Notes under the pieces: model-generated
What the model was told of the DNA's origin: nothing
Database searches by the model: none
Seen by the model: only the letters and a program-made list of their open reading frames with translations
In this document: one piece after another, positions 3,249-32,634 of the stretch
Position numbering within the stretch: the stretch's first letter is position 1
Layout: each line of letters starts with the position of its first letter
Virus record (IMG/VR): IMGVR_UViG_3300019487_000057
Span: 1 to 38,993 of that record
Origin: a virus
DNA: 38,993 bases
Direction: 5' to 3' (one strand)
Position numbers and translations under genes: made by a program

Positions 3249-3774
3249 GCAAGCATTGACACAATTGATCGAAGAGCTGGAGAAGACGGAACAGGAAACA
3301 ATCCATGAACCGATAAAGGAGCCGGGCGAAGTATTTCCGCCAAAGACGGCAGACGAATTAGAGCGGGACCAACGGCGACAGCGGCTTGAGGAAGAACTTG
3401 AAGCGCGAGACGGGCAACCCAAAGTGATCGAAATTCATGGCTACAAACCGCCCTCACAAACGCTTCAAGCGAGCGGCCCGTGCGCAACGGCACTGAAACT
3501 CGTCTACGGCGATCGGCACGCTTCGTATGGCGAGCCGCTCGATGATATGGGGCGCACTGCACAGCTCTGGTCGGCGCTCCTGGGTGTAGATGTGACCGCC
3601 GAGCAGGTCGCGATGTGCATGATTTGCGTGAAGCTGTCACGATTAGCGCACCAAATGAAGGCCGACAGCGTGGTGGATATCTGTGGCTATGCCGAGACGA
3701 TCTTCCGGATGCAGCAGGAGCGTGAACGGCGTCGCATTGAGACGCATGATGATGGAAAGTTGAACATCGAATGA
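3238..3774 (+). CDS. DUF6378-like phage protein
   Basis: 178 aa; the ATG overlaps the last codons of the polymerase gene. The first 60 residues are charged and probably disordered or helical. The C-terminal half (about 78-165) contains the pattern ALKLVYGDR, YGEPLDDMGRTAQLW, VAMCMICVKLSRL and VVDICGYAE. I recognise this as the DUF6378 family, common in phages and often found beside nucleotide-metabolism genes. No biochemical role is known to me. The gene ends in an ATGA overlap with the next one, so it belongs to the same coupled operon. The family call is from memory of the motif, not a search. Confidence 0.75.
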   Translation: MLTRQALTQLIEELEKTEQETIHEPIKEPGEVFPPKTADELERDQRRQRLEEELEARDGQPKVIEIHGYKPPSQTLQASGPCATALKLVYGDRHASYGEPLDDMGRTAQLWSALLGVDVTAEQVAMCMICVKLSRLAHQMKADSVVDICGYAETIFRMQQERERRRIETHDDGKLNIE

Positions 3775-9577: not shown

Positions 9578-10108
9578 ATGCCAAAGAAGGGTGAATACTT
9601 AGACGCTCGCCAAAGTTTATGGTCCAAGATTGACAGGCGAAGTGAAAATGAGTGCTGGAATTGGAAGGCTGCTCGTACACATGATGGGTACGGACGCTTT
9701 CATCTTCCAGGCTTTGGGCATACGATGGCACACCGTGCCGTTTGGATGTTGACGGTTGGCCCAATTCCAGAGGGCCAGCAAGTTTGTCACAACTGTCCCG
9801 AAGGAGACAATCGAGCATGCTGCAATCCTGCTCATCTTTGGCTTGGGACTATCCAGGAAAACCTGCGTGACCGTGATCAGAAAGGCCGTACGGCACGAGG
9901 AGATCGCAGTGGTCCCCGTCTCTATCCGGAACGCTACCCTCGCGGCGAGAAGAATGGAAATGCCAAACTTTCAGACGAAGCCGCCGACTCAATTCGCCAG
10001 CGTATGGACTCGGGCGAATCACCCTTAAATCTAGCTGAAGAATATGGCATTAGTTTCGCGACGGCATATCGGATTCGTGCGCGAGAGATACGTAAGCCAA
10101 AGATCTAA
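9578..10108 (+). CDS. Free-standing HNH homing-type endonuclease with HTH tail
   Basis: 176 aa, on the strand opposite to all its neighbours. The N-terminus has ENECWNWKAARTHDGYGRF, followed by the HNH core VCHNC-x5-RACCNPAHLWLGT. The middle repeats basic Pro/Arg motifs (RLYPERYPRGEKNG), and the C-terminus forms a helix-turn-helix (LAEEYGISFATAYRIRARE) that probably gives target specificity. The gene overlaps the 3' end of the convergent tail gene by four bases and separates it from the membrane-protein gene at 9445, i.e. it sits in an intergenic insertion site. It is paralogous in layout to the broken copy at 24869-25399. Confidence 0.85.
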   Translation: MPKKGEYLDARQSLWSKIDRRSENECWNWKAARTHDGYGRFHLPGFGHTMAHRAVWMLTVGPIPEGQQVCHNCPEGDNRACCNPAHLWLGTIQENLRDRDQKGRTARGDRSGPRLYPERYPRGEKNGNAKLSDEAADSIRQRMDSGESPLNLAEEYGISFATAYRIRAREIRKPKI

Positions 10109-11337
10109 ACAGTTCGGGCCACCACGATACCTTCGATGACGTTTCGCGCGTTCGGCAGCCCCACCGTAAACGGACCGTCCGTCATGGTCTCGCTGAATGC
10201 CTGTACCTCGATCTCGAATTCCGTCTCCTCCTCGAAGCCCGTCCAGGAAAACGCCTTGGTGTAGTCTGTCAGGGGCGGTGTAGTCAGGAATGAGCCGACA
10301 GTCGAGGAGGACCGGCTGGCCGGCAGCGTCGGCAGCCCGTCCACCGGATAGGCATCGCCTGCAACTCCGTTAATGGCGATTGCATCCACGTCAGCGTTGG
10401 CATACATGATAAAGGTAGGCCGCGCAGGCGTGACGTCATAATCCCGGTTGATCACGCCCCCAAACGTGGGCATTGTAACGTCTTCGTTGGGGAAATAGAG
10501 CGCGCCGCGGTCGGCCATGACGGCGTTGGACCCGTTGAACGGGAAAACGCTCGCTCCACCGGTGATTGTCGACGCTCCCGAAAGAAGCGTATCGACGCCC
10601 GGACTGACGGCCCAGAAGTGAGCCTGAAACTGGGCCGACCCACTCGTACCATCGAAGAGCGGAATGGTGTCCTGATCCTCGATTCCTGGCCAGTAATAGC
10701 CAGATGGTGAACCTGAAAACGCCTGACCTGATGACAGGAATACAAGTGCCTGCGGCAGTCCCTCAGGATTGTAGTTTGCGACGGTGAAGATCCGAAAGGT
10801 GCGCAACGGACGAAGCGCCACCGAGCCGCCGGGAAGGGTATCCAAGAATTCGACGCCATCAAACGAGATCAGATAGAAATTGTCGTTGGCATTGAGGTGC
10901 CGCACGATCCCATTGGTCAACGGCGTCGGCGGCGTCTCGCCCGTGTCCCAGCTTGCCCACGCCATGGCGTTGCCGCCGACGCGGTGCAGGAGTCCGAAGT
11001 CCAACGGTGGCGTTGGCACAGGGTAGGGAGCAATGATCGTCCCGGTGAGGGGGGTAGCCGGAACAGCCGCTACTAGCGCGGTGTGGATCGGAAACGAGGT
11101 ATCAACGTCATCGGGCCCCGGACCGATCTCAACCAGTAAGCGATCATAGACGGCGTTGCGCCGGTTAATTCGCGACACGATCACGTCCGTGCCGGAGATC
11201 TTACGGTGTGCAATGACAGGAAAGCAGCCGAGCGAGGCACCCCCGCGCAACGTCTCGGAGACAAGAGGATTTCCAACGCTCAAGGATCGTTCAATACGAA
11301 ACCCTTGACACAGATTGATAATTGCGACGTCGGCCAT
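10105..11337 (-). CDS. Virion-associated hypothetical protein, beta-rich
   Basis: 410 aa from the ATG at 11337, one base after the upstream stop. The sequence is rich in Gly, Thr, Pro and Val with alternating short strands and no recognisable catalytic motif. The middle region (LRTFRIFTVANYNPEGLPQ, SGYYWPG) and FTWTGFEEETEFEIEVQAF suggest beta-sandwich folding. It lies at the end of the tail-tip/receptor-binding gene series, so a tail fibre or baseplate-decorating role is likely by position. The family was not recognised. Confidence 0.6.
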   Translation of the reverse strand: MADVAIINLCQGFRIERSLSVGNPLVSETLRGGASLGCFPVIAHRKISGTDVIVSRINRRNAVYDRLLVEIGPGPDDVDTSFPIHTALVAAVPATPLTGTIIAPYPVPTPPLDFGLLHRVGGNAMAWASWDTGETPPTPLTNGIVRHLNANDNFYLISFDGVEFLDTLPGGSVALRPLRTFRIFTVANYNPEGLPQALVFLSSGQAFSGSPSGYYWPGIEDQDTIPLFDGTSGSAQFQAHFWAVSPGVDTLLSGASTITGGASVFPFNGSNAVMADRGALYFPNEDVTMPTFGGVINRDYDVTPARPTFIMYANADVDAIAINGVAGDAYPVDGLPTLPASRSSSTVGSFLTTPPLTDYTKAFSWTGFEEETEFEIEVQAFSETMTDGPFTVGLPNARNVIEGIVVARTV

Positions 11338-11338
11338 C

Positions 11339-12472
11339 TTATCCTGCTCCGATCTCTTCCTCGGCAACCTGACCAATCAAAACCAGCAATTGGTTGCAGG
11401 CGACGACCACCTGCACCGGGGCGATGGGCGTCGGCACCGCCAGATTATAGGTGCCCAGATCCACCACCCCCGTGATTGCGTCCTCGGCGTTGAACCTCAG
11501 CAACCGAAAGAGCGTCGTCGCCCCTCCTCCCTGACGTGCAAGTACGTAGCGATCCGCCGTTCGTCCCGGTGTCTGCGTCACTTGCACCAGATTACCGCGC
11601 AGGCTGGCGTCGTAGGGGTCGCCGTCCCGAGTCAGCGTCCGCGTCTCTTGCGCCGACATTGTCGTGATGCGCAGATAGCGCGCAGGAGCATTGAGCAGCG
11701 TCACCGTCGCCACGCCGTCATGGACGGCGAGACAGCTTCCTCCGGCCTCGACGGCAGGCGGGTCCGGCTCGGCCGCAGGTGCGGTCGGGTCCGTCAGACC
11801 TGGCGAGTAGGGATCGGTGAGCGCATAGCGATCCAGGACCGCATACTGTCCCCCCGATACCCGCCAGCGGATGAGGCTGAAGTAGCGGCGGCTGCGTGTC
11901 GTTTGCTGATCGTTTACCCATTGCTGGTAGCCGCGCAGGTCGTCCAAGGCATAGAGATCCCAGGGAGCGACTGTATCAAATGTCACCGCCGCGCCACCGG
12001 AGGTGGCCGAGCCATTGGCGAAGCCTAACTCGTTCGCTCCAACGATCTGCCGCAGCTCCGCCGTGAGCGCGTCCACCACCAGCCCCTGCGCGACCCCCAC
12101 TACCTGGGCCAGCGTCAGTGTGATGCCGTCCGGGTCGGGACAGCGGCACTGGCATCCGCCCACGAACGTCGGCCAGCGCAGCGGCTGGTGGGCGACGGGA
12201 GAGGTGACGAAGCGGCGGGCAAGACCGCCATGGACGACGATCAGATCTCCTAGTCGAGGCTTTACACCGCTGTAGGGAACGAAGCCATCATTGGGCCCAA
12301 CCCAGACATGCCCCGAGGGCACCTCGTCCGGCTGAACCGGCAGGCGTCGCGAGCGCGCATCCGGCGGTGGCTTTGAAGCACGCGGCACCAGCCGCCCCAC
12401 GTCGGGGGCGGGGGCCCCCGGCGCTTTGGGCCAGAGGATCGTCAGCTTGATGGGGATTTCGTCCCGGGGCAT
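11339..12472 (-). CDS. Tail/baseplate-region hypothetical protein
   Basis: 377 aa. The N-terminal 80 residues are Pro-rich and polar; a CQCRCPD patch occurs near residue 107. The rest mixes helices (LTLAQVVGVAQGLVVDALTAELRQIV) and strands. No domain was recognised. It lies four bases downstream of the OB-fold protein gene and one base before the next gene, in a tight tail-tip operon, which is the only hint of function. Confidence 0.55.
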   Translation of the reverse strand: MPRDEIPIKLTILWPKAPGAPAPDVGRLVPRASKPPPDARSRRLPVQPDEVPSGHVWVGPNDGFVPYSGVKPRLGDLIVVHGGLARRFVTSPVAHQPLRWPTFVGGCQCRCPDPDGITLTLAQVVGVAQGLVVDALTAELRQIVGANELGFANGSATSGGAAVTFDTVAPWDLYALDDLRGYQQWVNDQQTTRSRRYFSLIRWRVSGGQYAVLDRYALTDPYSPGLTDPTAPAAEPDPPAVEAGGSCLAVHDGVATVTLLNAPARYLRITTMSAQETRTLTRDGDPYDASLRGNLVQVTQTPGRTADRYVLARQGGGATTLFRLLRFNAEDAITGVVDLGTYNLAVPTPIAPVQVVVACNQLLVLIGQVAEEEIGAG

Positions 12473-12475
12473 GAG

Positions 12476-12733
12476 TCAGCTCACCTCGTTATTACGCGTG
12501 CCGACCCCGACGATCATGGGCTGGTGTGATCCCTGGCGCACCCACACCTGGTCACCTGCCAGGAGGGGGAGCCCCGCCGTCGGCTGACACGCGACCGTCT
12601 GGCCGCCGATATTGACCATGACCTGCGAGCCATCTAAACGCAGGACGATCCCCGAAACAAGCCCGCCGCCTCGCGACACCGCCCGCGCCGCCGCCTCCGT
12701 CTGTGCGACGAGAAACCGAGCTAGATTCGCCAT
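12476..12733 (-). CDS. Small OB-fold-like baseplate protein
   Basis: 85 aa from the ATG at 12733, six bases after AAAGGAG. An N-terminal helix is followed by SGIVLRLDGSQVMVNIGG, TVACQPTAGLPLLAGDQVWVRQG and PMIVGVG, the strand pattern of OB-fold domains in phage baseplate spike proteins (gp5/gpV-type N-terminal domains). No catalytic or needle domain follows. It probably forms part of the tail tip. The frame is open upstream through 12826, so longer products are possible. Confidence 0.55.
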   Translation of the reverse strand: MANLARFLVAQTEAAARAVSRGGGLVSGIVLRLDGSQVMVNIGGQTVACQPTAGLPLLAGDQVWVRQGSHQPMIVGVGTRNNEVS

Positions 12734-12882
12734 CCCCATCTCCTTTGTCTCGTCTGCCGCAGTCGCCGCCGCACCCGCCGTACGTAGGGTAGATGGTGGA
12801 GCAACGCCAGCCAGTAACGCCGGCATACCGAGTTGCGACGATACCAGTGAAGCATTGAGAGCATCCGTCGATCCAGGATCAA
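12721..12882 (-). CDS. Possible Arg-rich 53-aa protein
   Basis: A TTG start at 12882 lies five bases after a perfect AGGAGG. The frame runs 53 codons and ends by overlapping the start of the OB-fold gene. The product has 18 Arg plus several Trp, Tyr and His residues (MLHWYRRN, HHLPYVRRVRRRLRQTRQRR). The strong ribosome-binding site is the main evidence; composition could also be an accident of the GC-rich overlapping frame. Confidence 0.35.
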   Translation of the reverse strand: MILDRRMLSMLHWYRRNSVCRRYWLALLHHLPYVRRVRRRLRQTRQRRWGWRI

Positions 12883-12894
12883 ACCATCCTCCTA

Positions 12895-13575
12895 TTAAAG
12901 GCCACCCCGATTCACCAAGTATGTGTTTTGTTGATTGGTGTCGGCAGTTCCGTGTGCCGTCTTACGTTTACGACGAGCGACCTCCATTAATGCGTGGCAT
13001 GCGCGACACCTGCGTTGACCGCGCGATGTCGCCCCTTTGCCCCAATAGGTATTGGCTTCGTCATAAGCATGCCCACGCCGACAAGTAGGTTTGAGCCGGT
13101 AAGGACACTTGTTATTCGCTTGTTCGTTCCGGGTCGCCCATCTACAATTCCCTGATTTGTAGCCCAATTTGTTGTCAATGCGATCCAGGGTATGATTTGT
13201 CGTAGGAGCGTCTCCCATATCATCGTGAAACACTGAAAATGACCTCCAACGGTCACAGACAGTAATCCCAGAACCGCCGTAATATGAGTAGGTGGCGCAC
13301 TTAGTATCTGTGCATCGCTTCCACATGCTCCTCCAAGTTACCCACTCTTTTGAATGGGACTTGCCATGCGTCTTTAAGTGTTCCTTTCGCCAGCAACCAC
13401 AAGATAGAGTGCTTCCTCCGATTAGATTCTGAGGTTTGAATGTTTTTATCATCCCGCAATCACAACAGCATTCCCAATGCCGAATTTTTCGTCCGTGTAA
13501 TGGCGAAGGAAGCCGAAACTCTCGCACTGTAACTAACCTGCCGAATCTCTCCCCAAGCGTAAATGGATGTTTCAA
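12895..13575 (-). CDS. HNH endonuclease with C-terminal zinc module and a borrowed jelly-roll tail
   Basis: 226 aa from a TTG start overlapping the stop of the jelly-roll gene (TTGA). The N-terminal part has GERFGRLVTVRE and a Cys cluster (ECCCDCGMI, LSCGCW). The HNH-related core is YYGGSGITVCDRW followed by HTLDRIDNKLGY and NCRWATRNEQ. A zinc module follows (TCRRGHAYDEANTY, RRCRACH), like those of two other HNH proteins here. The last residues, QQNTYLVNRGGL, match the C-terminus of the upstream jelly-roll protein, QQTQYLMSRGGI, and are extra to the nuclease family. The base composition (AT-richer) differs from its neighbours. Confidence 0.85.
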   Translation of the reverse strand: MKHPFTLGERFGRLVTVREFRLPSPLHGRKIRHWECCCDCGMIKTFKPQNLIGGSTLSCGCWRKEHLKTHGKSHSKEWVTWRSMWKRCTDTKCATYSYYGGSGITVCDRWRSFSVFHDDMGDAPTTNHTLDRIDNKLGYKSGNCRWATRNEQANNKCPYRLKPTCRRGHAYDEANTYWGKGATSRGQRRCRACHALMEVARRKRKTAHGTADTNQQNTYLVNRGGL

Positions 13576-14345
13576 ATTCCACCTCTGGACATGAGATATT
13601 GGGTTTGCTGGATACGGTCTGGCTCACTATGAGATGTCTTAAACGCCCAGAAATCCAAAAACTTACCGTCGCAGTCGTTGTTTCCATTCCCATCGGCCAG
13701 AAACGGCAGCGTACCGTTGCCCAGTGTATAGCCGCCGCTGAAGAACTCCGTACCGGTTCCGATCAGGACACCGTCGCGGTAGACGCGCACCTCTTCAGCA
13801 ACCTCATCAAAGATCCAAGCGAGTACTTGCAATCCAGCTACCGTCGCCGCCACTTCTTCTACAATACCATCAGATCGGTAACCAACATTACCATTGCTGT
13901 TCAAAAGAAGTTGCAAATTGCCATCTCCACCAGTATTGTTCATGTCCAGCACGATCTCTTCACCCGAACCTGCCTCGCGATCAAAGAGGAGGTAGAAGGA
14001 GAAGCCTCCCGGAACGTTGTCCGACACCAGCGCCTGAAAATGGCGCTGGCTGGCGCTCTTGGAGACATACGGGTGGCCGTTGATGAGATCGCCTGCGCCG
14101 CTCTCGTAGATCGGCAGCGGAGAGCCGTTCACGGTCCATCCGGTACTGATGGGGTTGCCGCCCCCCTCCTGCTGGTCCTGCCAATACTCGATGCCGTCGC
14201 CATCGTTGGCCGGCGTCAGGAAATCGAAGCTGCTGTAGACATCCTCGTCCGATTCCAGTTGGATGACGGCGCCCGCGACGGGCGTCCCCCCGCCGGGGGT
14301 GCCGGTCGTGGCCGAGGAGATATTCGAGTAAGCGGAAAATGGCAT
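13572..14345 (-). CDS. Concanavalin/LamG-like jelly-roll virion protein
   Basis: 257 aa. An N-terminal Ser/Thr/Gly-rich anchor is followed by a beta-sandwich: YWQDQQ, HFQALVSDN, SFYLLFDRE, NLQLLLNSNGNVGYRSDG, LAWIFDEVAEEVRVYRDG and FLADG. This is the strand order of LamG/concanavalin-like carbohydrate-binding domains found on phage tail tips. The C-terminal helix DRIQQTQYLMSRGGI is typical of the last helix of this family. It probably binds host surface sugar. It is next to the FN3 tail protein gene (two-base gap). Confidence 0.65.
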   Translation of the reverse strand: MPFSAYSNISSATTGTPGGGTPVAGAVIQLESDEDVYSSFDFLTPANDGDGIEYWQDQQEGGGNPISTGWTVNGSPLPIYESGAGDLINGHPYVSKSASQRHFQALVSDNVPGGFSFYLLFDREAGSGEEIVLDMNNTGGDGNLQLLLNSNGNVGYRSDGIVEEVAATVAGLQVLAWIFDEVAEEVRVYRDGVLIGTGTEFFSGGYTLGNGTLPFLADGNGNNDCDGKFLDFWAFKTSHSEPDRIQQTQYLMSRGGI

Positions 14346-14347
14346 CT

Positions 14348-16309
14348 TTAGATCAGCGCGAAGGCGCGCACCCTGTATGAATAGGTCGTAGACGGTGTCA
14401 GTCCGACGTCCAGATAGCTTGTGGAGTTGGGCGGAAGGATGGCGATCTCCGTCCAGACCACCTGATCTAGAGACCGCTCGACGCGGTAGCTGGACTCGTT
14501 GCTGGCGTTGTCGGTCCAGGTGAGTTGGATCTCGGTCGTGCTGATGGCCGTCGCCAGCAGGTTCGTCGGCGCCGCGACGGTGGCCACGGTGGGGTCGAGC
14601 GGCACGCTCTCGGTCAGACGCCGTGCCGTGCCGCTGGTGCGGCCGCCGTTGACGTCGAAGCGATGCTGAACAGATTCAATCCAGTAACTCACGAAAATAT
14701 CAGGCGCAACCTCCACTTGTAGCGGTTGGCCTGCCCAGAGATTAGGATCGAATGTCCCGTCAAAATTCACCGTCTCCCAGCGCACAGGAGTAAGTTGCAA
14801 TTCTTGTTCTTGAGTGGCAAGATCAAAGATCTGCTGCGCCTCCGACGAACCAATGTAGGCGTTCTCATAGATCCAGGCGTTGCTGGATCGGCGTCCCTCC
14901 GTCGGTATTCCATTGACCAAGGGGAGGGGAGGGAAGACTACCTGGATCGACTGTACTTCATCCCGTCCAAGTTGTGAGTTAGCAGTGGGGAGTTGACCGC
15001 CTACGAGCTGCGAGTCGACAAAGTCCGTCGTAAGCTCATTGTCGTTGTCCGGGTCCACCAGGTAGGCGGAGATCTGCGTCCGGACACCGGAGGAATGCGT
15101 CTGGGAATGGGTACGCAGCACGACGCGTGCAGGTTTCCATCGTCCGGCGGCCGTATCATACTCCTGCACGCTCTCCTGCTCAGCGATCTGCTCTCCGTCA
15201 TCGTTGTGAAAATACTGTTTGAAGGTCCGCTGCACCAGATCAAAGTTACCGTTTTGTAACTCCTCGCGCTCCTCAATCGTGCTCCAGAGAATCGCCGTCC
15301 GGAGTGTGATCGGCTCGAAAGCGACCAGTTCGTTGAGCGCCGCCTCGGGATGGTAATACTCGTAGTTGGTGATGATGCGCTTGAGGAGGGTCGATCCAGT
15401 GCTAAAACCGCCACTGTCTAACACCGTCTGGTAGTGACGCTCCTCGGTCAGGATGACCTTCCCCTCTTCACGCTCTTCCAGGGTATAGATTTCCAACCAG
15501 ACGAAATCTTCATAGGTGCCCGCGACGGACTCCAGCAGCTCTCGGTTGATCCGCCGGTTGACGTAATTGTAGCGGCGCTCGGGCCCGAGATCAGGGCGCG
15601 GTTGAGTATAAGCTGCTCCGCGAATTTCGATACCAATTACATGTGCTAGTCTCGGCTGATCGTCATACTTGCGCTGGCTAATTTGGTGCTGACTATGGCG
15701 AGCGCGTGTCACGGCATAGCCAGTATTCGGCGGATTGGCCCAGTCGACGCGCAAAACGCTGAGCACCTTGTCTCTTACGTCCGGGAAATGTTGGATCGAC
15801 GCAAACACGTTCCAGGGCTCCATTAGATCTTGAACGATCTGAAAGAGCGATTTCTGGTGAGCGACATAAGAAGCGTAGAGCGGATAATCGGGAAATGCCA
15901 GCGAACCAATGTTAACGCCTATCTGTGCCGCCGCTTCGCGGAGGATCGCGTGCGCCCGCGGCAACACAGAGGGCGGTCGCGCCTCCCAGACAAACGTAAT
16001 TGGCGTCTGCAGGATCTCGGAGATACCAAGATCTTCACCTTGAACATTAAAAATTGCTCCAGAAGGAGTAATCGTTTGTTGTACTGTTGTCGCTTCACCG
16101 CGTATCAACGTAACTCGGTCTTCATCATATCCTGCAGTGATCACCACAGGACTTCCAATCTGCAATTGCCCTGAGCCCCCCATCTGCACGTTAAAGCCGC
16201 GAGAAGCAGACCCGAGATCGTCGGAAACTTCCCAAGAGCCAGCCAGCTCATTGGTGTCTCCGGCTGCCCCACGGATTAATGCGCGAGCGGTAAAGATAGC
16301 AGTAGGCAT
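14348..16309 (-). CDS. Tail/baseplate hub-like protein with C-terminal fibronectin type III domain
   Basis: 653 aa. The N-terminal half has small beta-domains (GSPVVITAGYDEDRVTLIRGEAT, IFNVQGEDLGISEILQ) and ILREAAAQIGV / SLFQIVQDLMEPWN, patterns seen in phage hub proteins of the gp27/gp44 type. RALIRG near the start echoes the RARI repeats of the neighbouring gene. Residues about 575-653 form an FN3 domain (LATAISTTEIQLTWTDNA, YRVERS, YSYRVRAF). FN3 domains occur on tail proteins that contact the host surface. The hub assignment is inference from order and local patterns. Confidence 0.65.
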   Translation of the reverse strand: MPTAIFTARALIRGAAGDTNELAGSWEVSDDLGSASRGFNVQMGGSGQLQIGSPVVITAGYDEDRVTLIRGEATTVQQTITPSGAIFNVQGEDLGISEILQTPITFVWEARPPSVLPRAHAILREAAAQIGVNIGSLAFPDYPLYASYVAHQKSLFQIVQDLMEPWNVFASIQHFPDVRDKVLSVLRVDWANPPNTGYAVTRARHSQHQISQRKYDDQPRLAHVIGIEIRGAAYTQPRPDLGPERRYNYVNRRINRELLESVAGTYEDFVWLEIYTLEEREEGKVILTEERHYQTVLDSGGFSTGSTLLKRIITNYEYYHPEAALNELVAFEPITLRTAILWSTIEEREELQNGNFDLVQRTFKQYFHNDDGEQIAEQESVQEYDTAAGRWKPARVVLRTHSQTHSSGVRTQISAYLVDPDNDNELTTDFVDSQLVGGQLPTANSQLGRDEVQSIQVVFPPLPLVNGIPTEGRRSSNAWIYENAYIGSSEAQQIFDLATQEQELQLTPVRWETVNFDGTFDPNLWAGQPLQVEVAPDIFVSYWIESVQHRFDVNGGRTSGTARRLTESVPLDPTVATVAAPTNLLATAISTTEIQLTWTDNASNESSYRVERSLDQVVWTEIAILPPNSTSYLDVGLTPSTTYSYRVRAFALI

Positions 16310-16312
16310 AGG

Positions 16313-16927
16313 TCAGATCGGTGGCACGGGCGACGAGATGCGCGCCCGACAGTAGAACTGCGTTGCGGTGCGAGCGATCGCTTGCTGTGTTGGACGTACG
16401 ACACAGCCCGTCGGCACCTCATAGTCAATCGTAAAACTCACCGGCAGGCGGGCGCTGACGACCACCCTGATCCGCGCTTGGCTTGTGAACTGGGTATAGA
16501 TCCGCTCGGCGTCCGTGATGTTGAAAATCACGGGCAGCACTGTGGAGATCTGCTGGAGGACGTTGAAGGAGACCTCCAGCGTGGCGCTGACGCCGGACAG
16601 TATACGCGCACGAGCGGTAAACGGAACGAGCGCCGTTGCGTCAAGAATTCGAGCCCGGCTGAGAAACTCTGCATCCCCTAACGTCAGAATGCGCGCACGC
16701 GCCAGGAACTGCGCCTCTTCGATCACCCGAATTCGCGCCTGGACGTCGAACATCACGCGCGTCTGGTGGGTGATGTTCGCCTGACAGAGGAACTCAGTCT
16801 CCTCTACCCTTAGAATGCGCGCCCGGCTGGTAAAGACGGCCGTCGTCGGCCCGCCGCCCTCCTCGGCGCCGGCTCCCAGAATGATCTCGCCCAGCAAGCT
16901 GTCGGGAGTGCCGAGGATGCCGGTCAT
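16313..16927 (-). CDS. Virion protein with repeated F-x-x-RARI motifs
   Basis: 204 aa made of short beta repeats built on the motif F-x-x-(R/Q)-A-R-I. Instances are FTSRARIL, FDVQARIRV, FLARARIL, FLSRARIL, FTARARIL, FTSQARIRV and FYCRARIS, with FLCQANI as a diverged unit. Close-packed units are 14-17 residues apart. The pattern suggests a repetitive beta structure such as a fibre or solenoid. There is no signal peptide or catalytic motif. It sits in the tail-tip operon next to the hub-like protein, whose N-terminus carries a single related unit (IFTARALIRG). Confidence 0.6.
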   Translation of the reverse strand: MTGILGTPDSLLGEIILGAGAEEGGGPTTAVFTSRARILRVEETEFLCQANITHQTRVMFDVQARIRVIEEAQFLARARILTLGDAEFLSRARILDATALVPFTARARILSGVSATLEVSFNVLQQISTVLPVIFNITDAERIYTQFTSQARIRVVVSARLPVSFTIDYEVPTGCVVRPTQQAIARTATQFYCRARISSPVPPI

Positions 16928-16934
16928 AGGTCCC

Positions 16935-17291
16935 CTACAAGAGCAATCGTGTCAGCCGTACCAGAAGCCAGTTCAGATCCTCTGTGGGGGGAGTCTCCCC
17001 CCGCACCAGCCCCTGATAAATGGCAAGCAACCGCGATTCGTCGTCCATCGGCGCTGGGGTGAGATCCGGCGTCAACTCCAGGTCGTCCCAGACGAACTTT
17101 CCTCCTGTCAGCCGCGCCCCCTTCCAGTCCTCGTGGAGCATCTCTAAGATGAGCGGGTTCTCGGCTGCGGCGAAGTCAATCTCCAGCGTCGCGACGGTCC
17201 CCGGCGGCGGATCGGGATATTGGATCTCCTCGGCCAGCGTCTGCAGCACCCGGATGATCCGCCCGTCTTTGTCGGCGTAGAGGATGGCCAT
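16935..17291 (-). CDS. Small virion-region hypothetical protein
   Basis: 118 aa from the ATG at 17291, two bases after the stop of the upstream tail gene. The sequence starts MAILYADKDGRIIRVLQ and continues with acidic and Trp-containing helices (EMLHEDWKGARL, FVWDDLEL, LLAIYQGLVRGE). No family was recognised. The longer open frame upstream is inside the neighbouring gene in another phase and was not used. Confidence 0.55.
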   Translation of the reverse strand: MAILYADKDGRIIRVLQTLAEEIQYPDPPPGTVATLEIDFAAAENPLILEMLHEDWKGARLTGGKFVWDDLELTPDLTPAPMDDESRLLAIYQGLVRGETPPTEDLNWLLVRLTRLLL

Positions 17292-17293
17292 CC

Positions 17294-18295
17294 CTAACTC
17301 TCCCGGAAGTGATACAGGACCATGCCGTTCTTGGCCGTCGAGTTGAAGCCTTCCATCGCAATTCCCCAATGGGTCGCTGTCAAAAACCCGGTACGTGCCT
17401 GTTGGCCGGTCTTGAACCACTTCACACGATCGACGCTGAACTCGAAATGATGGTTGGTGTTGTCGTCCCGGATGCGGAACCATACCGGCACGATCCCGAA
17501 CCAGCGGCGCAGGAGGTTGAAGTGGTCGGCGCTCGCGGTGATATTGCCGCTAAACGACGTCACCGAGTTCCAATTGCTGGATACGACCGTCGGCCCCGCG
17601 GCCAGCGGTCCCGTACCGGTATCCCACCAATGCGTGATCAGCTCGGCGGAAACGCTATCGTAGAGAAACATCCCCGCCCGCGCAAATGCCTGCCCGGACC
17701 AGATCGGCTCGAAGAGCGCCTCCAAGGTGAAGGGAGCCGCCGGGATCGCCTTGTAGAGCCCGCGGACATTATCTCCCGAACCGCTGGGGATCTCAAAATA
17801 GAGCGTGCCGTTATTATCGGTCGCGGTGGCGGTTCCCTGGTTCAGCCAGGTCAGCGCCGACACCAGCGGAGGTGGCGCCAGCCGCGTCAATCGCGGCCCC
17901 AGATGGTTCCAGGCCGATCCGGTGTCGATCCCGCCGACAAGACCGTCCGTCGGAACAAACAGGCGGTTCTCCAGCCCGGCCGCGGGGCGGTTAGCATAAG
18001 TGTCCTGGACGATGCCGCGTGTGAAGAGCGCCAGCAGCCCGTCTCGTGTCAGGGCCTGCGCGACGGCCGTGCCGTTACCGTGCGAGGCTGCCGTCGTCCC
18101 CTCCTGGCCCCGGACGACGGTCAGGGTGTTCCCCGACCGCGCCGTGACCTTGAGGATCTCGCTCTCGATGACGATACGATAGTCGCCCGCCGAGGAAAAC
18201 TCGCTGGCATCGTTCAGAACGATCGAGACCTGAACGTTGTCGATCGCGCCATTGAGCGTATCCTGAGGCGTGTTGGCATACTGTTCCGCGGCCAT
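17294..18295 (-). CDS. Tail-fibre or receptor-binding-like protein
   Basis: 333 aa. Residues about 1-80 contain a small domain with VIESEILKVTARSGNTLTVVRGQEGT, a motif frequent in phage minor tail proteins. The C-terminal two-thirds is a beta-sandwich rich in Trp and Phe (FTLEALFEPIWSGQAF, RAGMFLYDSVSAELITHWWD, WFGIVPVWFRIRDD, HFEFSVDRVKWF) resembling concanavalin-like carbohydrate-binding domains. A role in host recognition is likely, inferred from fold pattern and operon position. Confidence 0.6.
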   Translation of the reverse strand: MAAEQYANTPQDTLNGAIDNVQVSIVLNDASEFSSAGDYRIVIESEILKVTARSGNTLTVVRGQEGTTAASHGNGTAVAQALTRDGLLALFTRGIVQDTYANRPAAGLENRLFVPTDGLVGGIDTGSAWNHLGPRLTRLAPPPLVSALTWLNQGTATATDNNGTLYFEIPSGSGDNVRGLYKAIPAAPFTLEALFEPIWSGQAFARAGMFLYDSVSAELITHWWDTGTGPLAAGPTVVSSNWNSVTSFSGNITASADHFNLLRRWFGIVPVWFRIRDDNTNHHFEFSVDRVKWFKTGQQARTGFLTATHWGIAMEGFNSTAKNGMVLYHFRES

Positions 18296-18302
18296 GGCAT
18301 CC

Positions 18303-18494
18303 TCACGCCTGCATCAGCACCTGATCCTCAGACGTATCTTGTGTCGCGGCGGCGGCGGCCTGCGAGGGACGCTTCGCCCTGCAGAAGGGGCATACATACC
18401 AGATCTCCGGCTTCAGATCCGGCGGCTGGCCAGAGTAGCGCACCTTCTGCTCAAGGATTCCCCCGCACGCACAACGGTAATTAAATTCGCTCAT
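18303..18494 (-). CDS. Small zinc-finger protein
   Basis: 63 aa with YRCACGG and VCPFCRAKRP, two Cys pairs forming a likely zinc ribbon, and an Ala/Thr-rich tail. The ATG at 18494 overlaps the upstream stop (ATGA). It is embedded between two tail-protein genes. Function not recognised. Confidence 0.6.
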   Translation of the reverse strand: MSEFNYRCACGGILEQKVRYSGQPPDLKPEIWYVCPFCRAKRPSQAAAAATQDTSEDQVLMQA

Positions 18495-19429
18495 CCGATC
18501 CTCTCCTCCACGGCTGCCAGCGCGGCGGCAAACTCCTCCTCCGCGAGCGGCTCGACATCATCGTCCGTCCCCACCCGCACCCGGCCGCGGCGGTAGATGG
18601 CCCAGGACCCGTCCTCCTCCACCCCCAACTCGCAGACGAGATCCTTTAGGCGCCAACCGATCACCTGTACGATGTGCGGCGGAAGCGCCTCTCCCGCACC
18701 GCGCTGCCCGAAAACCTGTACCGTGACGCGGCGGAAGTAGCGGAACTGAAACAGCATGCGCGGCACGGGGAGGGGTAACATCTCGATAAAACTCGCAAAA
18801 AGAGCTGAGTAACAACTGAAGCCGGTCTGGTCCAGCCGATAACTCGGAAGCGCAGACATCGGATGGCGCGGATGGATCGTCAACACCTGGACCTGATCCA
18901 GCCGCACCTCCCTGAAGGGAATCTCTTCTCCTTCGCTTCCGTCGTCCTGCAAAGGGAACTGGCTTACGACGCGATGGTCACTATGAATAACAGCCCACCC
19001 ATACGGCGTTTCTTCCCGCGCCGTCGTAAAAGGCGTCAGGTTGACCGGCAGCGGCGCCGCGCGCAGTTGTTCCAGGAGCCGGTCGATCCCTGCCAGCGAG
19101 AGTGTGGCGTCGATCTGCGCCACCCGGCCGGTCGGCTGCTCTTCCCGGTATTCCGAGACGTTTCCCACCCGGGCGTAAATGCAGTCCGCCGCCTCCCCGG
19201 TGACACAGCATTCTCCTGGGCTGACGCGATAGGTGCGCCCGTCTGTCGGATTCGGAGCCAGCAGGTCCGCGCGCAGGGAAAGTAGGCCCGTCTCACTGAT
19301 ATGCGTCCAAACCTCGACCGCTCCCTGGTCCTCCGTGTTGAGATGGCCCAAAGGGACGCAAATGCACTTGTCATGCTGCCGCGTCACGACGCAGGGCAGC
19401 AGCCCGACTTGAAAATCTTGAGTTGGCAT
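18491..19429 (-). CDS. Hypothetical virion-region protein
   Basis: 312 aa, starting at ATG 19429 after a 106-base non-coding stretch. It contains a Cys-bearing N-terminal segment (CVVTRQHDKCICVPLGH, ECCVTGEAADCIYARVG), a beta-rich middle and a C-terminal acidic helix (LAEEEFAAALAAVEERIG). No domain was recognised. It is the first gene after a gap within the tail-tip operon, followed by the zinc-finger gene with overlap. Confidence 0.55.
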   Translation of the reverse strand: MPTQDFQVGLLPCVVTRQHDKCICVPLGHLNTEDQGAVEVWTHISETGLLSLRADLLAPNPTDGRTYRVSPGECCVTGEAADCIYARVGNVSEYREEQPTGRVAQIDATLSLAGIDRLLEQLRAAPLPVNLTPFTTAREETPYGWAVIHSDHRVVSQFPLQDDGSEGEEIPFREVRLDQVQVLTIHPRHPMSALPSYRLDQTGFSCYSALFASFIEMLPLPVPRMLFQFRYFRRVTVQVFGQRGAGEALPPHIVQVIGWRLKDLVCELGVEEDGSWAIYRRGRVRVGTDDDVEPLAEEEFAAALAAVEERIG

Positions 19430-19535
19430 GTTAGTTGCTTTTAAAGCAGTTCGAGTATCTCAACCTTTTTCCTCGTATTCGCACAAAGTATAAGGAAGCC
19501 TACGAGGCGTTTATTGATAGGCTGGATTTGTCGGA
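19430..19535. other. 106-base gap with inverted repeats
   Basis: No convincing gene. A 7-bp inverted repeat (CCTCGTA / TACGAGG, 23-base loop) lies at about 19472-19508, and a short palindrome TGCTTTTAAAGCA is about 10 bases from the minus-strand start codon at 19429. The AT-rich stretch could hold a minus-strand promoter or processing site for the tail-tip genes, but no clear -35/-10 pair is seen. Confidence 0.35.
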
Positions 19536-20039
19536 TCATGTCTCACTATAAGAGAGGCTCAGACCCGAAAAGCTGGTGTCGCCCGCTGGTGCCGCCGTCG
19601 TCGTGCGGAGCTGCGTCACGATGAAATCACTCATCCCCGAGCTGGTCACGATCGAGCCGCTGAGGTTGCCACCGATCGAAATGTTCGCCGTCCCCGGGTC
19701 CGCCGTCGGGAATGACGACGTTGCGATCGAAGATGTCACCTTCGCGGGCTGCAAGTAGATCTGCTGCGTGCCGCGGAAGAAGAGAAAAAGGCCGGTCGCC
19801 GGGCTGAAGTTCGTGCTGAGCCACATCCGCAGGTCGCGGATCTCCGTAAACGACCCCGTGAACATCGCTCGCTTCCAGACTTCGTAGCTGTTGTTGCCGA
19901 AGGTGATGGGATTGGCGGCGTAGACGGCGGGGTTGGCCACGTCCGCGTCTTGGTAGTTCCATGCGTTGCCCGATCCGCCCACTGAGGTAAGGGTAGGGCC
20001 TGCTCCCGTATGTTGAATGATGGCTAGGGTCGCGGGCAT
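19536..20039 (-). CDS. Virion-associated beta-rich hypothetical protein
   Basis: 167 aa from the ATG at 20039, preceded by AAGG and GGAG. The sequence has strand-rich segments (FLFFRGTQQIYLQPAKVTS, TANISIGGNLSGSIVTSS) and ends GLSLSYSET. Two aromatic surface patches (SYEVWKRAMFTG, RMWLSTNF) are visible. No family was recognised; position suggests a tail-tip or fibre component. It follows the 20421 gene by ten bases. Confidence 0.55.
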   Translation of the reverse strand: MPATLAIIQHTGAGPTLTSVGGSGNAWNYQDADVANPAVYAANPITFGNNSYEVWKRAMFTGSFTEIRDLRMWLSTNFSPATGLFLFFRGTQQIYLQPAKVTSSIATSSFPTADPGTANISIGGNLSGSIVTSSGMSDFIVTQLRTTTAAPAGDTSFSGLSLSYSET

Positions 20040-20620: not shown

Positions 20621-21867
20621 CTAACGTCGAGGAACACCAAACCTTTCCAACATTATCTCCAATTCTCGCGAGACAAGAGGGACGGAGAGACGCTTCATGC
20701 ATACGACGTGTTCGGCTGGATTGGACTTTCGCAAGCAATTTTTTAAATACCAGCACGGAGCGCAATCCGCCACCTCCTTGCCAACGGTCCAGTGGCCCGC
20801 ATACTCCCGCATCCGGAGCGCGCCGTCCGTCGAGCCGAAAAGCCCAATGACCGGCACCCCCAGCGCCCCCGCGACGTGCAGGAGACCGGAATCGGGCGAC
20901 ACCACCGCATCCAGGTGCGCGAGGATCGCCGCCACCTCTCGGATAGGGCGACCGAGCACGGCCGGGATCTCGTCGGTGACGCGCTGGTGCATGTCGAACG
21001 TCACCGTCTTGTAGCCACGGATCTGAAGGTGAATGGCAAGATCCGCCGCGTGAGGCCATGCCCGCACCGGATCGTGAGCCTGCAGCACCACCCCGACACG
21101 GGGACCGTCTCCAAGATGTTCTTCGACCCAGCGGCGACCATCCGCCAGCTCCTCCGGCGTCAACACCAGGATGGGGCGACGACTGCTCGGATTGAGACCA
21201 CCCGCACAGTGACGCAGCCAGATGTCAGTACGGTGCTCGGTGACGTGGGGCTGCGTCTGCGTCTCGACAATGCTGCAGATAACGTTCAGATCCACGACCA
21301 GGTCGGTGTCGATCACACAGTTCGGAATGTGCTCATTCGGCGTCTTGGCATACTCCCAGCGGCACGCACGCGTGATCCCGGTCACGAACTCGTTCCCCTC
21401 CACCCGCTCGATGCGGTCGATGTGAGGGTTGTTGCGGAACAGCATCGGGAGGGCGCCCGCCATATACTGCCAGGAGGTCGCCACGGTCACCTGACAGCCC
21501 GGATACTTCTCCTTGAGCCCCAGAAAGCAGGGGGTCAGCATGAGGACGTCCAAGTGTTGCGACAAGGCTCTTTATCCCTGTCTCTCTCCGTTTCCAGAGA
21601 GTATCGGATCATCTCTTCGCCTCTTTCACAAGGCGCTGCGCGCTCGTGGGCCTTTACCGCCCGTTCTGGGCTCCATGGCCTGATCTCTGAGCCTTTTAGC
21701 CGTTCCCGGCTAACTTGGCTGCGGATTCCCATACCTTGCGGCTTCAGGGTTCCCGCAATTCACGCAGTACAACTTGGGCATCGCTACCCAAGCGGGCCAC
21801 ATAGACCAATGCCCCCAAGTTGACGTATGACGCATACGCGCAGCGGTTTTTTCCTAAGGAGTTGCAC
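20621..21867 (-). CDS. GT9-family glycosyltransferase (heptosyltransferase-like), split by a group I intron
   Basis: Exon 1 is 21867-21823 (GTG start, AAAGGAT upstream; 15 codons) and exon 2 is 21559-20621, giving 327 aa after splicing. Exon 1 supplies RKKPLRVCVIR, the first beta-strand; exon 2 continues QHLDVLMLTP. The join reproduces the VI(K/R)-x-(R/Q)H-x-D-VL-x-TP loop of WaaQ/RfaQ-like heptosyltransferases. Further family marks are VVSPDSGLLHVAGALGVPVIGLFG (donor-binding region) and a C-terminal Cys cluster (CAPCWYLKNC, CMKRL). It would transfer a sugar, possibly heptose, to a surface glycan, virion protein or other acceptor. Without splicing only a TTG-initiated protein lacking strand 1 could be made. 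It lies downstream of a methyltransferase gene. Confidence 0.85.
21560..21822 (-). ncRNA. ORF-less group I intron (IA-like) in the GT9 gene
   Basis: A complete core can be drawn on the minus strand. P1: exon CATACGT (21829-21823) pairs with GTCTATG (21806-21800), with a U-G at the splice site and one C-C mismatch. P2: CTTGGG/CCCAAG (21792-21787, 21778-21773). P3: CTGCGTG (21767-21761) with CGCGCAG (21642-21636). P4: TGCGG (21757-21753) with CCGCA (21724-21720). P5: CCC/GGG. P6 and P6a: TTAGCCG-GGAA-CGGCTAA (21713-21696). P7: GATCA (21685-21681) with TGATC (21611-21607). P8: CGCCT/AGGCG (21635-21618). P9: CTCTCTG-GAAA-CGGAGAG (21601-21584). Extra helix GCCC/GGGC between P7 and P3 fits group IA. 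The last base is the expected G (21560). Splicing restores the GT9 reading frame. Confidence 0.9.
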
Positions 21868-21938
21868 TCTTCATCCTTTCGCGCTTCTGCGCGGATCTTC
21901 TCAATCACTCGCTCAATCGGATCGCGTGCTACAAACAT
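21744..21938 (-). CDS. Possible 64-aa protein overlapping exon 1 and the intron
   Basis: The ATG at 21938 overlaps the stop codon region of the upstream methyltransferase gene (TATGTTTGTAG), so translational coupling is plausible. The first 25 residues (MFVARDPIERVIEKIRAEARK) look coding. The frame then crosses GT9 exon 1 in another phase and runs through intron elements P1, P2, P3 and P4 before stopping in P5. In spliced RNA the frame would instead end seven codons after the junction. It may be a genuine short gene truncated by intron arrival, or a chance frame. Confidence 0.3.
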   Translation of the reverse strand: MFVARDPIERVIEKIRAEARKDEECNSLGKNRCAYASYVNLGALVYVARLGSDAQVVLRELREP

Positions 21939-22567
21939 ATCTTCTGGATATAACGATGGTTACGAGCGTTGGAATAAAACTGGTGACGCGCAAGAACTGT
22001 AGTATCCGCCTTCAGCTCTGCTAAGAACTCCTCGATTGCTTCCTGAACGCCGGGAGTATCTGCATCATCGCAAATAATGATACCTTTGTTCGCGAGAAGA
22101 CCCCAACACATGGGTAACTCATTGGAAACGGCGTTATAAGCGTGGTGACCGTCGATGTGGATGAGGTCGTAAGGGCTCATCCGGTTGATCTCTTCGTGCG
22201 GCCCATGGAACGCGTTATGCCGGATGCAGCGCGCGTTAGCCCAGGGCACCTGCTCCTGAAAGTTTCGGTTGGCCTTGGCGCAGGAATCATAGTCATACGA
22301 CTCATCGTCGATGCCGCGGTAGACGAGATTCTCAACGACCTCAGCGGCGCCAAGCATCATGCAGATCGCCGTACACCCGAAGCGCACGCCGATCTCAAAG
22401 ATCGTTTGCGGCTTATACTTACGTGCTACCCCGGCGTAGACCGCGAAATAGCGGTCAAAGGTATCATCGTCATAGCGGTCGCCCAGCGGTACGGTAAAAC
22501 AGTCAATCTGCTCTCGCTTCAGATAAAACCGATCTGCGTCAGTAAATAGAACCGCCTCTTCAATCAT
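21929..22567 (-). CDS. Class I SAM-dependent methyltransferase (Methyltransf_24-like)
   Basis: 212 aa from the ATG at 22567, with GAGG seven bases upstream and overlapping the previous stop. The Rossmann motif I is IFEIGVRFGCTAICM; an acidic strand end (YRGIDDES) follows, then YDLIHIDGHHAYNAVSNEL, the metal/substrate segment typical of cephalosporin-hydroxylase/Methyltransf_24 enzymes, and GIIICDDADTPGVQEAIEEF. It probably methylates a sugar or other small acceptor in the glycan island together with two further methyltransferases and two GT9 enzymes. The substrate is not visible. Confidence 0.8.
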   Translation of the reverse strand: MIEEAVLFTDADRFYLKREQIDCFTVPLGDRYDDDTFDRYFAVYAGVARKYKPQTIFEIGVRFGCTAICMMLGAAEVVENLVYRGIDDESYDYDSCAKANRNFQEQVPWANARCIRHNAFHGPHEEINRMSPYDLIHIDGHHAYNAVSNELPMCWGLLANKGIIICDDADTPGVQEAIEEFLAELKADTTVLARHQFYSNARNHRYIQKICL

Positions 22568-22778
22568 CGAAATCCCTCGTTTCCTCGTCGTCTTTGTTAC
22601 GCAATTTACGCCTGCCATTGGTCCCAACGTGCCATGACTGACACCAACGACAGCGATAACTGATGATGCGGCGTCTGCCGCGACGTCGCATTTGTTGCGC
22701 TACCATCGACGCCGTTTGGTAATCGGAAAATGCGCACTTTGCCACGCATGTCGCCAAGCGTCCCTGATGACCCGCCAT
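22560..22778 (-). CDS. Small zinc-binding protein (C-x-x-C-x3-WH type)
   Basis: 72 aa with GATGAGG five bases before the ATG. It has CVAKCAFSDYQTA, a basic helix (AQQMRRRGRRR) and YRCRWCQSWHVG. This short pattern (YxCxxCxxWHxG) recurs in small phage and bacterial proteins of unknown function. The stop overlaps the methyltransferase start. A tail of charged residues (NKDDEETRDFDD) ends the protein. Confidence 0.65.
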   Translation of the reverse strand: MAGHQGRLATCVAKCAFSDYQTASMVAQQMRRRGRRRIISYRCRWCQSWHVGTNGRRKLRNKDDEETRDFDD

Positions 22779-22797: not shown

Positions 22798-23484
22798 TCA
22801 TCCTACATCCCTCCGAAAAAGAGCTAACCCCAGATCGTTGTAAACAAACTGCGAAGAGAACGATGCTCCATCCTCTTCTACGAGCCACGTCAAAAAGTCG
22901 GCGATCGCATTTTGCCGCTCGGGATCGACTGTACCCGACGCCACGAGCAATCCTCCGGGGGCCGTCACGCCCCATCCCGCCCGGAGGACCGCGAGCATAC
23001 CCTCCGACGTCGCCTCGTCCACCAGGACGAGGCGGAACCTTTCCGCTGTCAATTCGGGGGGCAGCCCATTCCGCGCGACGTCGTGCTGGAAGCACGTCAT
23101 CCGCACCTCGGGCAGGAAGCGCCGAAACGTCTCCGCCGCCATCGCCAGCGTGCGATACCCATACGCCGGCGGTCCCATGTCCCGCTCCGGGTCGATCGCC
23201 GTCAGGCGCACTCGCCGCAGGCCCGCCAGCAGAGCGCCCGAACAGAGACAATAGGACGCATAGCCAAGGTACATGCCAACGGTCAAGATAGTAGAGGGTT
23301 TGAACGTCGCTCCCAAACCAGCCAGATCGTCGTAGCCAGATCCCCAATCGCGAAACTCCTCACGCCGCCGAGCAATGTCCGCCGGATGTGCGATCTCATC
23401 CAGGTCGATCCGCACGCGTCGGCGCGGATCGTAGAGGTCCTTGTCCCGCAACGCCTTGCGGATCGCCCAGCGGACGTCGGACAT
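22798..23484 (-). CDS. Methyltransferase-like protein (second of the island)
   Basis: 228 aa, with its ATG overlapping the upstream HNH stop as TAATG. A Rossmann-like N-terminal half has FKPSTILTVGMYLGYASYCLCSGAL (motif I region), RRVRLTAIDPER (acidic strand 2 end), RFRLVLVDEATSEG and VTAPGGLLVASGTVD. This arrangement matches class I methyltransferases related to the Methyltransf_24 group. Motif I is diverged (VGMYLG rather than EIG/DxG), so activity is less certain than for the neighbour at 21929. Confidence 0.65.
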   Translation of the reverse strand: MSDVRWAIRKALRDKDLYDPRRRVRIDLDEIAHPADIARRREEFRDWGSGYDDLAGLGATFKPSTILTVGMYLGYASYCLCSGALLAGLRRVRLTAIDPERDMGPPAYGYRTLAMAAETFRRFLPEVRMTCFQHDVARNGLPPELTAERFRLVLVDEATSEGMLAVLRAGWGVTAPGGLLVASGTVDPERQNAIADFLTWLVEEDGASFSSQFVYNDLGLALFRRDVG

Positions 23485-24020
23485 TAGTAACCGTCAGCGC
23501 ATGCAGTAGCTTGCGTAAAGTTCAATACAGCAAATTCACCGAACAATTCAACTGCAGCCCGGTCGTAAGCCCTTGCCGCGTCCTCCTTGGTGAAGTAATA
23601 GCCTAGCGACATTCGCTTCCAACGAAACTTGATGTACGCTCGCCATTTCTTCTTGGACGGGAAGTAGCTTACGCCTCTGTAGCCGCTAGTGTTGTTTCGT
23701 TTAAGCTTCGAGTTTGCGCCGTTTTCCGAACAACTTGCCAACCGAAGATTTTCCCGACGGTTGTCCAGAGTGTCTCTACTGACGTGATCTGCTCGTTCCA
23801 TTGAAGTGAGCGAACGGCCTAGCTTTCGAGCCAAGACTTCCCTCGCCATACTAATGGTCGCCTGGCCGTCTTTTCGCTCTTCATATCTTGAAACATACTC
23901 ATAACCCGCTTGGTTTCTATGTACCCGCCATGGCCACTGCAATACAAACTCATAATCCTCGTCCGATACTTTTGCCACCTTGCCTCGGCCATGTTTTCCA
24001 GTCAACGAAATTTCAACCAT
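23484..24020 (-). CDS. HNH endonuclease with AP2 DNA-binding domain
   Basis: 178 aa from the ATG at 24020 (MVEISLTG-KVAKVSDEDYEF), the usual start of this family; the frame is open further upstream to 24107. The HNH region is LTSMERADHVSRDTLDNRRENLRLAS, followed by NGANSKLKRNN. A C-terminal AP2 domain has SGYRGVSYFPSKKKWRAYI and LGYYFTKEDAARAYDRAAVELFGEFAVLNF. It is a free-standing homing-type nuclease, inserted between two methyltransferase genes with 8- and 1-base overlaps that keep the operon translationally coupled. Lower GC than its neighbours supports transfer. Confidence 0.88.
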   Translation of the reverse strand: MVEISLTGKHGRGKVAKVSDEDYEFVLQWPWRVHRNQAGYEYVSRYEERKDGQATISMAREVLARKLGRSLTSMERADHVSRDTLDNRRENLRLASCSENGANSKLKRNNTSGYRGVSYFPSKKKWRAYIKFRWKRMSLGYYFTKEDAARAYDRAAVELFGEFAVLNFTQATACADGY

Positions 24021-24840
24021 CGCCATCCTGAAACGTTGTGCAACGTAAGGCTGCTGTAAATGTATTAGGGCGTCCATTCTGGCCAACGCCTCGAATGCTG
24101 TCTTCAAAGTGGCTGACGTGCGTCAAATTTGCAACTGCTCGGATTCCGGCGATTTCATCGTCCCAAGTAAAGAGTTCTTCCAAAGTCTCGGGATGCATGT
24201 AATGATGATGCTCGCCCGGACGCCAGTGTTTCCAGGGCAACTTTTCCTGATTCTCCCACCACGAGCGCGCATACTCTCCCGGAAACCTTAACGGCGGCAA
24301 CGGAGCTGTCACGAAAATCCAGTCCGTGCAGGCGCTCACCCACCGCACATGATTCAGATGCTCAAAGTGCTCCAGAGTATCGAAAAAGGTGATGGCACGA
24401 TAACGTCGCGAATCCGTCAGAGGATCAGGCAGCGCTCCGAGCTTGCGCACACCGGGATAGTCGGTTGGGTTAACGTCATGCCCATAGGTCTCCCAGCCGT
24501 TCTGGGTAGCCCAACGAATGTAGGAACCGTTGCCGTAACCAATATCCACGATCTCACGGTTGCCGTGATAGACATTGGTATGCCCCATCGGCAGCGCATC
24601 ATTCAAGCGCAGGACCGTCTCGACATAAGCCAGCCGTAGGCCAGACATCTGCTGCGTTGTGGGATAGCGGTCATACCGTTCCGCCACGTAAGCCGCATCG
24701 TAGGAGACCGTCGTGACCGGATCGACCACCGACGTCAACCGGCAAGATGCGCAATGACGCAACTTGAGACCTTCCAGCTCGTGGATCTGCGTGCTGTCGT
24801 CATAGCGGCAGCCTTCGCACACCATGTCGTTGTAGATCAT
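24013..24840 (-). CDS. SAM-dependent methyltransferase with N-terminal zinc ribbon (Methyltransf_23-like)
   Basis: 275 aa from the ATG at 24840 with GGGGGAGG upstream. The N-terminus has a Cys4 ribbon (CEGC ... CASC), as in sugar C-methyltransferases and related enzymes. VDIGYGNGSYIRWATQNGWETYGHDVNP is motif I plus the acidic loop, AITFFDTLEHFEHL is the motif II/post-motif region and IFVTAPLPP follows. The His cluster GEHHHYMHPETLEEL may bind metal or substrate. It probably methylates a sugar in the same pathway as the GT9 enzymes. An HNH gene lies on each side. Confidence 0.8.
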   Translation of the reverse strand: MIYNDMVCEGCRYDDSTQIHELEGLKLRHCASCRLTSVVDPVTTVSYDAAYVAERYDRYPTTQQMSGLRLAYVETVLRLNDALPMGHTNVYHGNREIVDIGYGNGSYIRWATQNGWETYGHDVNPTDYPGVRKLGALPDPLTDSRRYRAITFFDTLEHFEHLNHVRWVSACTDWIFVTAPLPPLRFPGEYARSWWENQEKLPWKHWRPGEHHHYMHPETLEELFTWDDEIAGIRAVANLTHVSHFEDSIRGVGQNGRPNTFTAALRCTTFQDGDG

Positions 24841-31665: not shown

Positions 31666-31683
31666 TTTGTTCAAGATTTATAA

Positions 31684-32586: not shown

Positions 32587-32634
32587 CTCAGAATGACCCT
32601 TTCATTGGTACGACTATTGCCAAATTTCAAAAGT

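Follow-up and report, generated by a model that had tools for sequence, protein, structure and literature searches.

The DNA analysed here, called the window, is the IMG/VR virus record IMGVR_UViG_3300019487_000057 at its full length (38,993 bases, linear, possibly a fragment). On its minus strand an orf of 257 amino acids (13572..14345) encodes a phage protein for which the name jelly-roll is only weakly founded, being based on a match to Laminin_G_3 (E=2.5e-4) that lies below the Pfam cut-off; an AlphaFold model of the protein was useless (pLDDT 31). Immediately downstream on the same strand is an orf of 226 amino acids (12895..13575) encoding an HNH endonuclease, the TTG start codon of which overlaps the jelly-roll stop codon by four nucleotides (TTGA), leaving no gap between the genes. 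The HNH protein matches phrog_374 (E=2.4e-44, residues 8-178) and other HNH PHROGs, which identify its nuclease domain, but no Pfam family at E<=0.1. Compared with the phrog_374 endonucleases, with which it shares the nuclease family match, it adds a zinc-ribbon-like region and a tail resembling the jelly-roll protein. The gene is free-standing, outside any self-splicing intron or intein, with its own start and stop codons and no intron in an Rfam search of positions 12600-14400 at E<=5. A group I intron at the HNH site was ruled out by this lack of an Rfam match, the one intron of the window being elsewhere. The next gene (12476..12826, minus strand, 116 amino acids, GC 0.66) would have directly followed the jelly-roll gene in an HNH-free ancestor.

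The earlier note on this DNA had pointed to similar tails on the two proteins, and both orfs and both tails are indeed present here on the minus strand. When the last 22 codons of each gene are aligned from their stop codons, KTSHSEPDRIQQTQYLMSRGGI of the jelly-roll protein (13575..13640) and KTAHGTADTNQQNTYLVNRGGL of the HNH protein (12898..12963), fused in frame to the nuclease, are identical at 11 of 22 positions with no gap; the jelly-roll protein terminates in ...QQTQYLMSRGGI and the HNH protein in QQNTYLVNRGGL. The likeness breaks off abruptly one codon upstream of the 22-residue block, and both copies terminate at a stop codon at the same point. Similarity extends about ten residues further upstream than the tail first described, of which the first few residues of the block are uncertain because a zinc-ribbon HNH homologue (L180) ends in ...GRRTAKGGIA. 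The match has a p value of 3.1e-6 or 2.4e-6 by shuffling (both rough Gumbel fits). Thirty-five of the 66 nucleotides are identical (counted by hand on the codon list), and the synonymous codon differences remarked on previously are real, with different codons at seven of the 11 identical residues (hand count); these two counts indicate an old pair or one drawn from different lineages, not a fresh duplication. The C-terminal coding sequence of the target gene is found, then, on both sides of the HNH orf, and the upstream copy completes the jelly-roll gene. A general tail motif was ruled out: QQxxYLxxRGG followed by a hydrophobic residue and a stop codon matches exactly three times in viral_contigs outside the window, twice with one and the same sequence, and each time in an unrelated short frame (37-49 codons).

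The suggestion that such a tail is foreign to HNH nucleases was upheld by comparison with 218 other HNH homologues: against their C-terminal 60 residues the tail scores at most 28, versus 60 against the jelly-roll end. HNH homologues elsewhere with the same tail, the check proposed to refute the idea, were sought among these proteins, and YLxxRGG occurs in 0 of the 218. By tblastn the HNH family was detected in 1,074 of 50,697 phage records, 16 of which cover at least 80% of the query; among the 50 matches listed, none extends past HNH residue 203. Eight fetched homologues have different ends, and L180, the only homologue flagged with the zinc-ribbon architecture, stops without the tail. On these comparisons of sequence, the tail is not a feature of the HNH family. 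That it nevertheless belongs to this particular nuclease, as a DNA-binding or stabilising extension resembling the jelly-roll end by coincidence or convergence, is scarcely credible: the C-termini of HNH homing enzymes are described as variable and thought to bind DNA (PMC12724721), and a structure model of the HNH protein (pLDDT 78), which decides nothing, has the tail mostly within a long helix at moderate to low confidence, whereas a match at p of about 3e-6, the absence of YLxxRGG from the 218 other homologues, the shared stopping point of the two copies and the recurrence of the layout with other genes at other loci all speak against it.

To survey this recurrence, 80 HNH loci were taken from viral contigs, 80 from genomes of bacteria and archaea and others from eight phage records, which together with the window makes 169 loci, 157 of them with an upstream orf. 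A second viral scan listed 80 loci, one of which was already in the set; 29 of the remaining 79 were removed as duplicates, leaving 50 loci, 47 with an upstream orf. Besides the window, 203 HNH loci with an upstream orf were thus surveyed. At each locus, the C-terminal 45 residues encoded by the upstream orf were compared without gaps to the three frames from inside the HNH gene to 400 bases past its stop codon, with p values from residue shuffles. This scoring was chosen because low-complexity frames had dominated the first, gapped surveys (L156, L115, L180, L178 and L236 were dropped from the gapped survey on that account). Four loci gave p<1e-4 (L154, L172, L240 and L243), versus none of 843 control pairs, which were neighbouring genes at the surveyed loci with HNH genes left out (Fisher p=0.0014); at p<1e-3 the counts are 7/203 and 6/843 (Fisher p 0.0056). 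Two of the loci below 1e-3 do not represent copies of gene ends and were dropped, L213 since its match is away from the gene end and L319 since helix-turn-helix-like stretches lie on both sides (judged by eye). L097 (p=3.6e-4) and L192 (p=1.2e-3, both copies at stop codons) are probable further cases, and L289 has a pair FKLTDW/FKLTKW with p=0.03. The 47 loci of the second batch yielded no convincing further case. None of the five other HNH genes of the window has a duplicated gene end; one upstream frame among them gave p=0.003 with a match rich in proline, serine and glycine.

The target genes are unrelated: a Rha regulator (L240), an SMC/SbcC-like ATPase (L172), a NinB-like protein just below the Pfam cut-off (L243) and others without a Pfam family. 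The downstream copy is in frame with the HNH gene in four of seven cases (the window, L240, L192 and L097); in the other three it is in a different frame or lies past the stop codon of the HNH gene, so in-frame fusion need not be adaptive. The earlier note had modelled the locus as an HNH gene that entered the 3′ end of the jelly-roll gene, with one end on the nuclease and the other completing the gene. As a layout this recurs elsewhere; for the window, an insertion is what the arrangement suggests. The accompanying idea that entry into coding DNA is without harm fails as a general rule. At L154 (positions 2119-3660) the HNH gene lies between two overlapping gene halves that have about 47 residues in common, and the target gene is split: its upstream part stops at GGWWK, and the remainder is downstream.

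Whether the HNH gene brought the duplicated end or left it behind had been put as alternatives, and at the testable loci (L240, L154 and L243) HNH-free relatives settle the matter as leaving. The L240 gene is 63% identical, aligned over residues 4-217, to an HNH-free relative, L268, behind whose stop codon no HNH gene and no second copy are readable in the 900 nt inspected of 1,497 nt. The L268 gene end is identical to the HNH-fused tail of L240 at 15 of 18 positions and to the upstream copy at 9 of 18; as the same codon is used at only 5 of the 15 positions identical in amino acid, the case for a native tail at L240 rests on amino acids, not codons. When the upstream gene of L240 is compared to L268, third-position identity falls from 0.54 to 0.23 near codon 147 (0/2,000 permutations), and amino acid conservation drops at that point too. 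Among codons for identical amino acids, 35 of 66 are the same before codon ~147 and 9 of 35 after it (Fisher p=0.011), a modest synonymous drop; amino acid divergence is seen in the N-terminal third of this gene as well. Most simply, some 70 codons at the end of the L240 gene would have arrived with the HNH gene. Vibrio phage pVa-21 (L253) has the L154 gene as one orf, and pVp-JHP1101 (L279) encodes it too; against these two phages the downstream copy of L154 scores 214 and 196, compared with 105 and 102 for the upstream copy. Of 12 NinB relatives of the L243 gene, 10 are closer to the downstream copy and two score one point higher with the upstream tail, and on these scores the downstream copy is probably native. 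At L172 and L097 the distance to relatives is too great for the copies to be oriented, and no relatives of the L192 gene were found in 46 other genomes of its class.

Relatives of the jelly-roll gene itself were not found by peptide patterns in viral_contigs, by tblastn in the 50,697 phage records or in 35 capsid-related virus records chosen from 80 loci. The adjoining gene of 653 amino acids was found at no locus in viral_contigs, and its matches in phage records are to its fibronectin-like C-terminus only. The one close capsid relative (L002) is a contig of 4.5 kb without the jelly-roll/HNH region. As these searches turned up no relative with an HNH-free jelly-roll gene, the direction of events in the window has to be read from the other loci.

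Base composition is the one sign within the window that points the same way. The 3′ half of the jelly-roll gene (13576..13970, minus strand), which would have been imported with the HNH gene, has a GC content of 0.506. Among 1,205 windows of equal length (395 nt) in the rest of the contig, only 1.0% are this poor in GC, and the maximal low-GC block within positions 10105-20000 is 12841-13962, comprising the HNH gene and the jelly-roll 3′ half. The GC3 of the jelly-roll gene is 0.80 in codons 1-128 versus 0.53 in codons 129-257; in 130-codon stretches of six other genes of the contig the median GC3 is 0.73 and the minimum 0.45, so low values like that of the jelly-roll 3′ half are found in other genes as well. 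Low GC is found in the downstream tail too (0.493 over 69 nt) and is no mark of native origin. The low-GC block fits import of the jelly-roll 3′ half together with the HNH gene.

The opposite direction, in which the jelly-roll end is native and the HNH gene arrived with a foreign jelly-roll tail at its 3′ end, is highly improbable; the tails of the window cannot be oriented directly and the low GC of the downstream tail would suit it, but all three of the other loci with usable relatives (3/3) point the opposite way, and the jelly-roll 3′ half has the low GC of the HNH gene. Somewhat less improbable, and still unlikely, is that the tail is a paralogue remnant: of two tandem jelly-roll genes, the second was entered by the HNH gene and mostly lost, its last ~20 codons being kept. 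Structural genes of phages are often arranged in tandem, and no HNH-free relative of the window's gene was found that would exclude a second copy. Against such a remnant, the Rha gene end of L268 matches the HNH-fused tail of L240 with no second copy in the 900 nt behind it, the gene of L154 is a single orf in pVa-21 and is encoded by pVp-JHP1101 too, and two tandem genes do not predict a low-GC block over the 3′ half of the upstream gene. With HNH-free relatives at other loci giving the direction, the tail of the HNH protein is most likely the displaced native end of the jelly-roll protein, and the present end of the jelly-roll protein most likely came with the HNH gene.

The HNH gene is thus probably a free-standing homing-type endonuclease gene, which inserted into the jelly-roll gene within its last ~20 codons and brought along a diverged version of the 3′ end. 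In the first step, the endonuclease would have cut an HNH-free allele near the codons that are now at the junction of HNH and tail. Repair would then have copied the 3′ half of the jelly-roll gene and the HNH gene from a donor phage, and the low-GC block may mark the extent of the copied segment. The recipient's own last ~20 codons would have been left behind the HNH gene, by chance in frame, to become the C-terminus of the nuclease; the native origin of this tail is suggested by the HNH-free relatives of L240 and L154 and by the family relatives of L243. The imported end completes the target protein, and the hybrid gene presumably works. The locus should resist recutting, because the imported DNA differs and the old site is interrupted, and the displaced native end may act as the right-hand homology arm in later homing events.

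An architecture of this kind is known from endonuclease elements of fungal mitochondria, and the phage HNH version looks new. Mobile orfs with carboxy-terminal duplications have been described in Glomus atp6, atp9, cox2 and nad3 and, before these, in atp6 of Allomyces macrogynus, where the native end is likewise downstream (PMC3630166). Common to them and to the window is an endonuclease orf lying behind a copy of the gene end that makes the target gene complete; in the fungal cases this copy is foreign, and the native end is downstream and closer to element-free relatives (PMC3630166), as would also hold in the window. The Glomus enzymes are LAGLIDADG or GIY-YIG endonucleases of mitochondria (PMC3630166), whereas those described here are HNH enzymes of phages and bacterial contigs with unrelated targets, and the fungal hybrids were demonstrated in mRNA (PMC3630166), whereas the present ones are read from DNA sequence. 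By analogy, the element of the window may work like the 3′-end-replacing orfs of fungal mitochondria without being a member of that group, as it is an HNH gene in a virus record. The mob genes of phage T4 are HNH genes, and the free-standing mob and seg endonucleases likewise adjoin conserved genes (PMC2988022); in contrast to the window, they are described as intergenic or gene-splitting (the mobE and mobA cases), and the accessible text of that paper mentions no duplicated, displaced gene end. Nor is a duplicated gene end mentioned in the accessible portions of the phage papers PMC2988022, PMC10448857 and PMC12724721 or of the general review PMC3943268, and no report of one in phages came up in searches of open-licence papers.

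Taking the loci together, the balance tips slightly toward a general strategy by which HNH homing endonucleases of phages may live in coding DNA without an intron or intein, carrying a diverged 3′ end of the target gene, swapping it in and keeping the native end as a tail or right-hand homology arm, and doing so independently in several unrelated genes. Free-standing homing endonucleases in phages are usually described as intergenic or gene-splitting; replacement of the target gene end would, if true, be a third mode. It would explain how these enzymes can occupy coding sequence with no self-splicing to remove them, why unusual C-terminal tails (possibly annotated as domains) occur on some HNH proteins and how homing endonucleases reshape the ends of phage proteins, and it would extend the fungal mitochondrial mechanism to phages with a different nuclease family. 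The paired-tail layout offers a simple sequence signature for searches.

The contig is very rich in homing-type elements, as it has five further HNH genes (9578-10108, plus strand; 23484-24107, 24869-25246 and 31225-31674, minus strand; 32464-33039, plus strand), one of them with an AP2 domain, besides an intron and an intein. The group I intron (Rfam RF00028, 54.4 bits; 21584-21814, minus strand) is flanked by orfs for a glycosyltransferase of family 9 (20621-21565) and a methyltransferase (21929-22627). The phage-encoded DNA polymerase III alpha subunit (36-3248, plus strand) is interrupted by an intein-splicing domain at residues 560-770 (E=1.1e-13). An orf of 786 amino acids (36591-38951, minus strand) matches both head maturation protease and major head protein families, so the protease and capsid protein appear to be fused; the relative L002 has the same protease/capsid layout. 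In Escherichia phage U1G (L090), an HNH homologue, and so a relative of the window's HNH endonuclease, lies between two pieces annotated as DNA polymerase I, an insertion of the gene-splitting kind.
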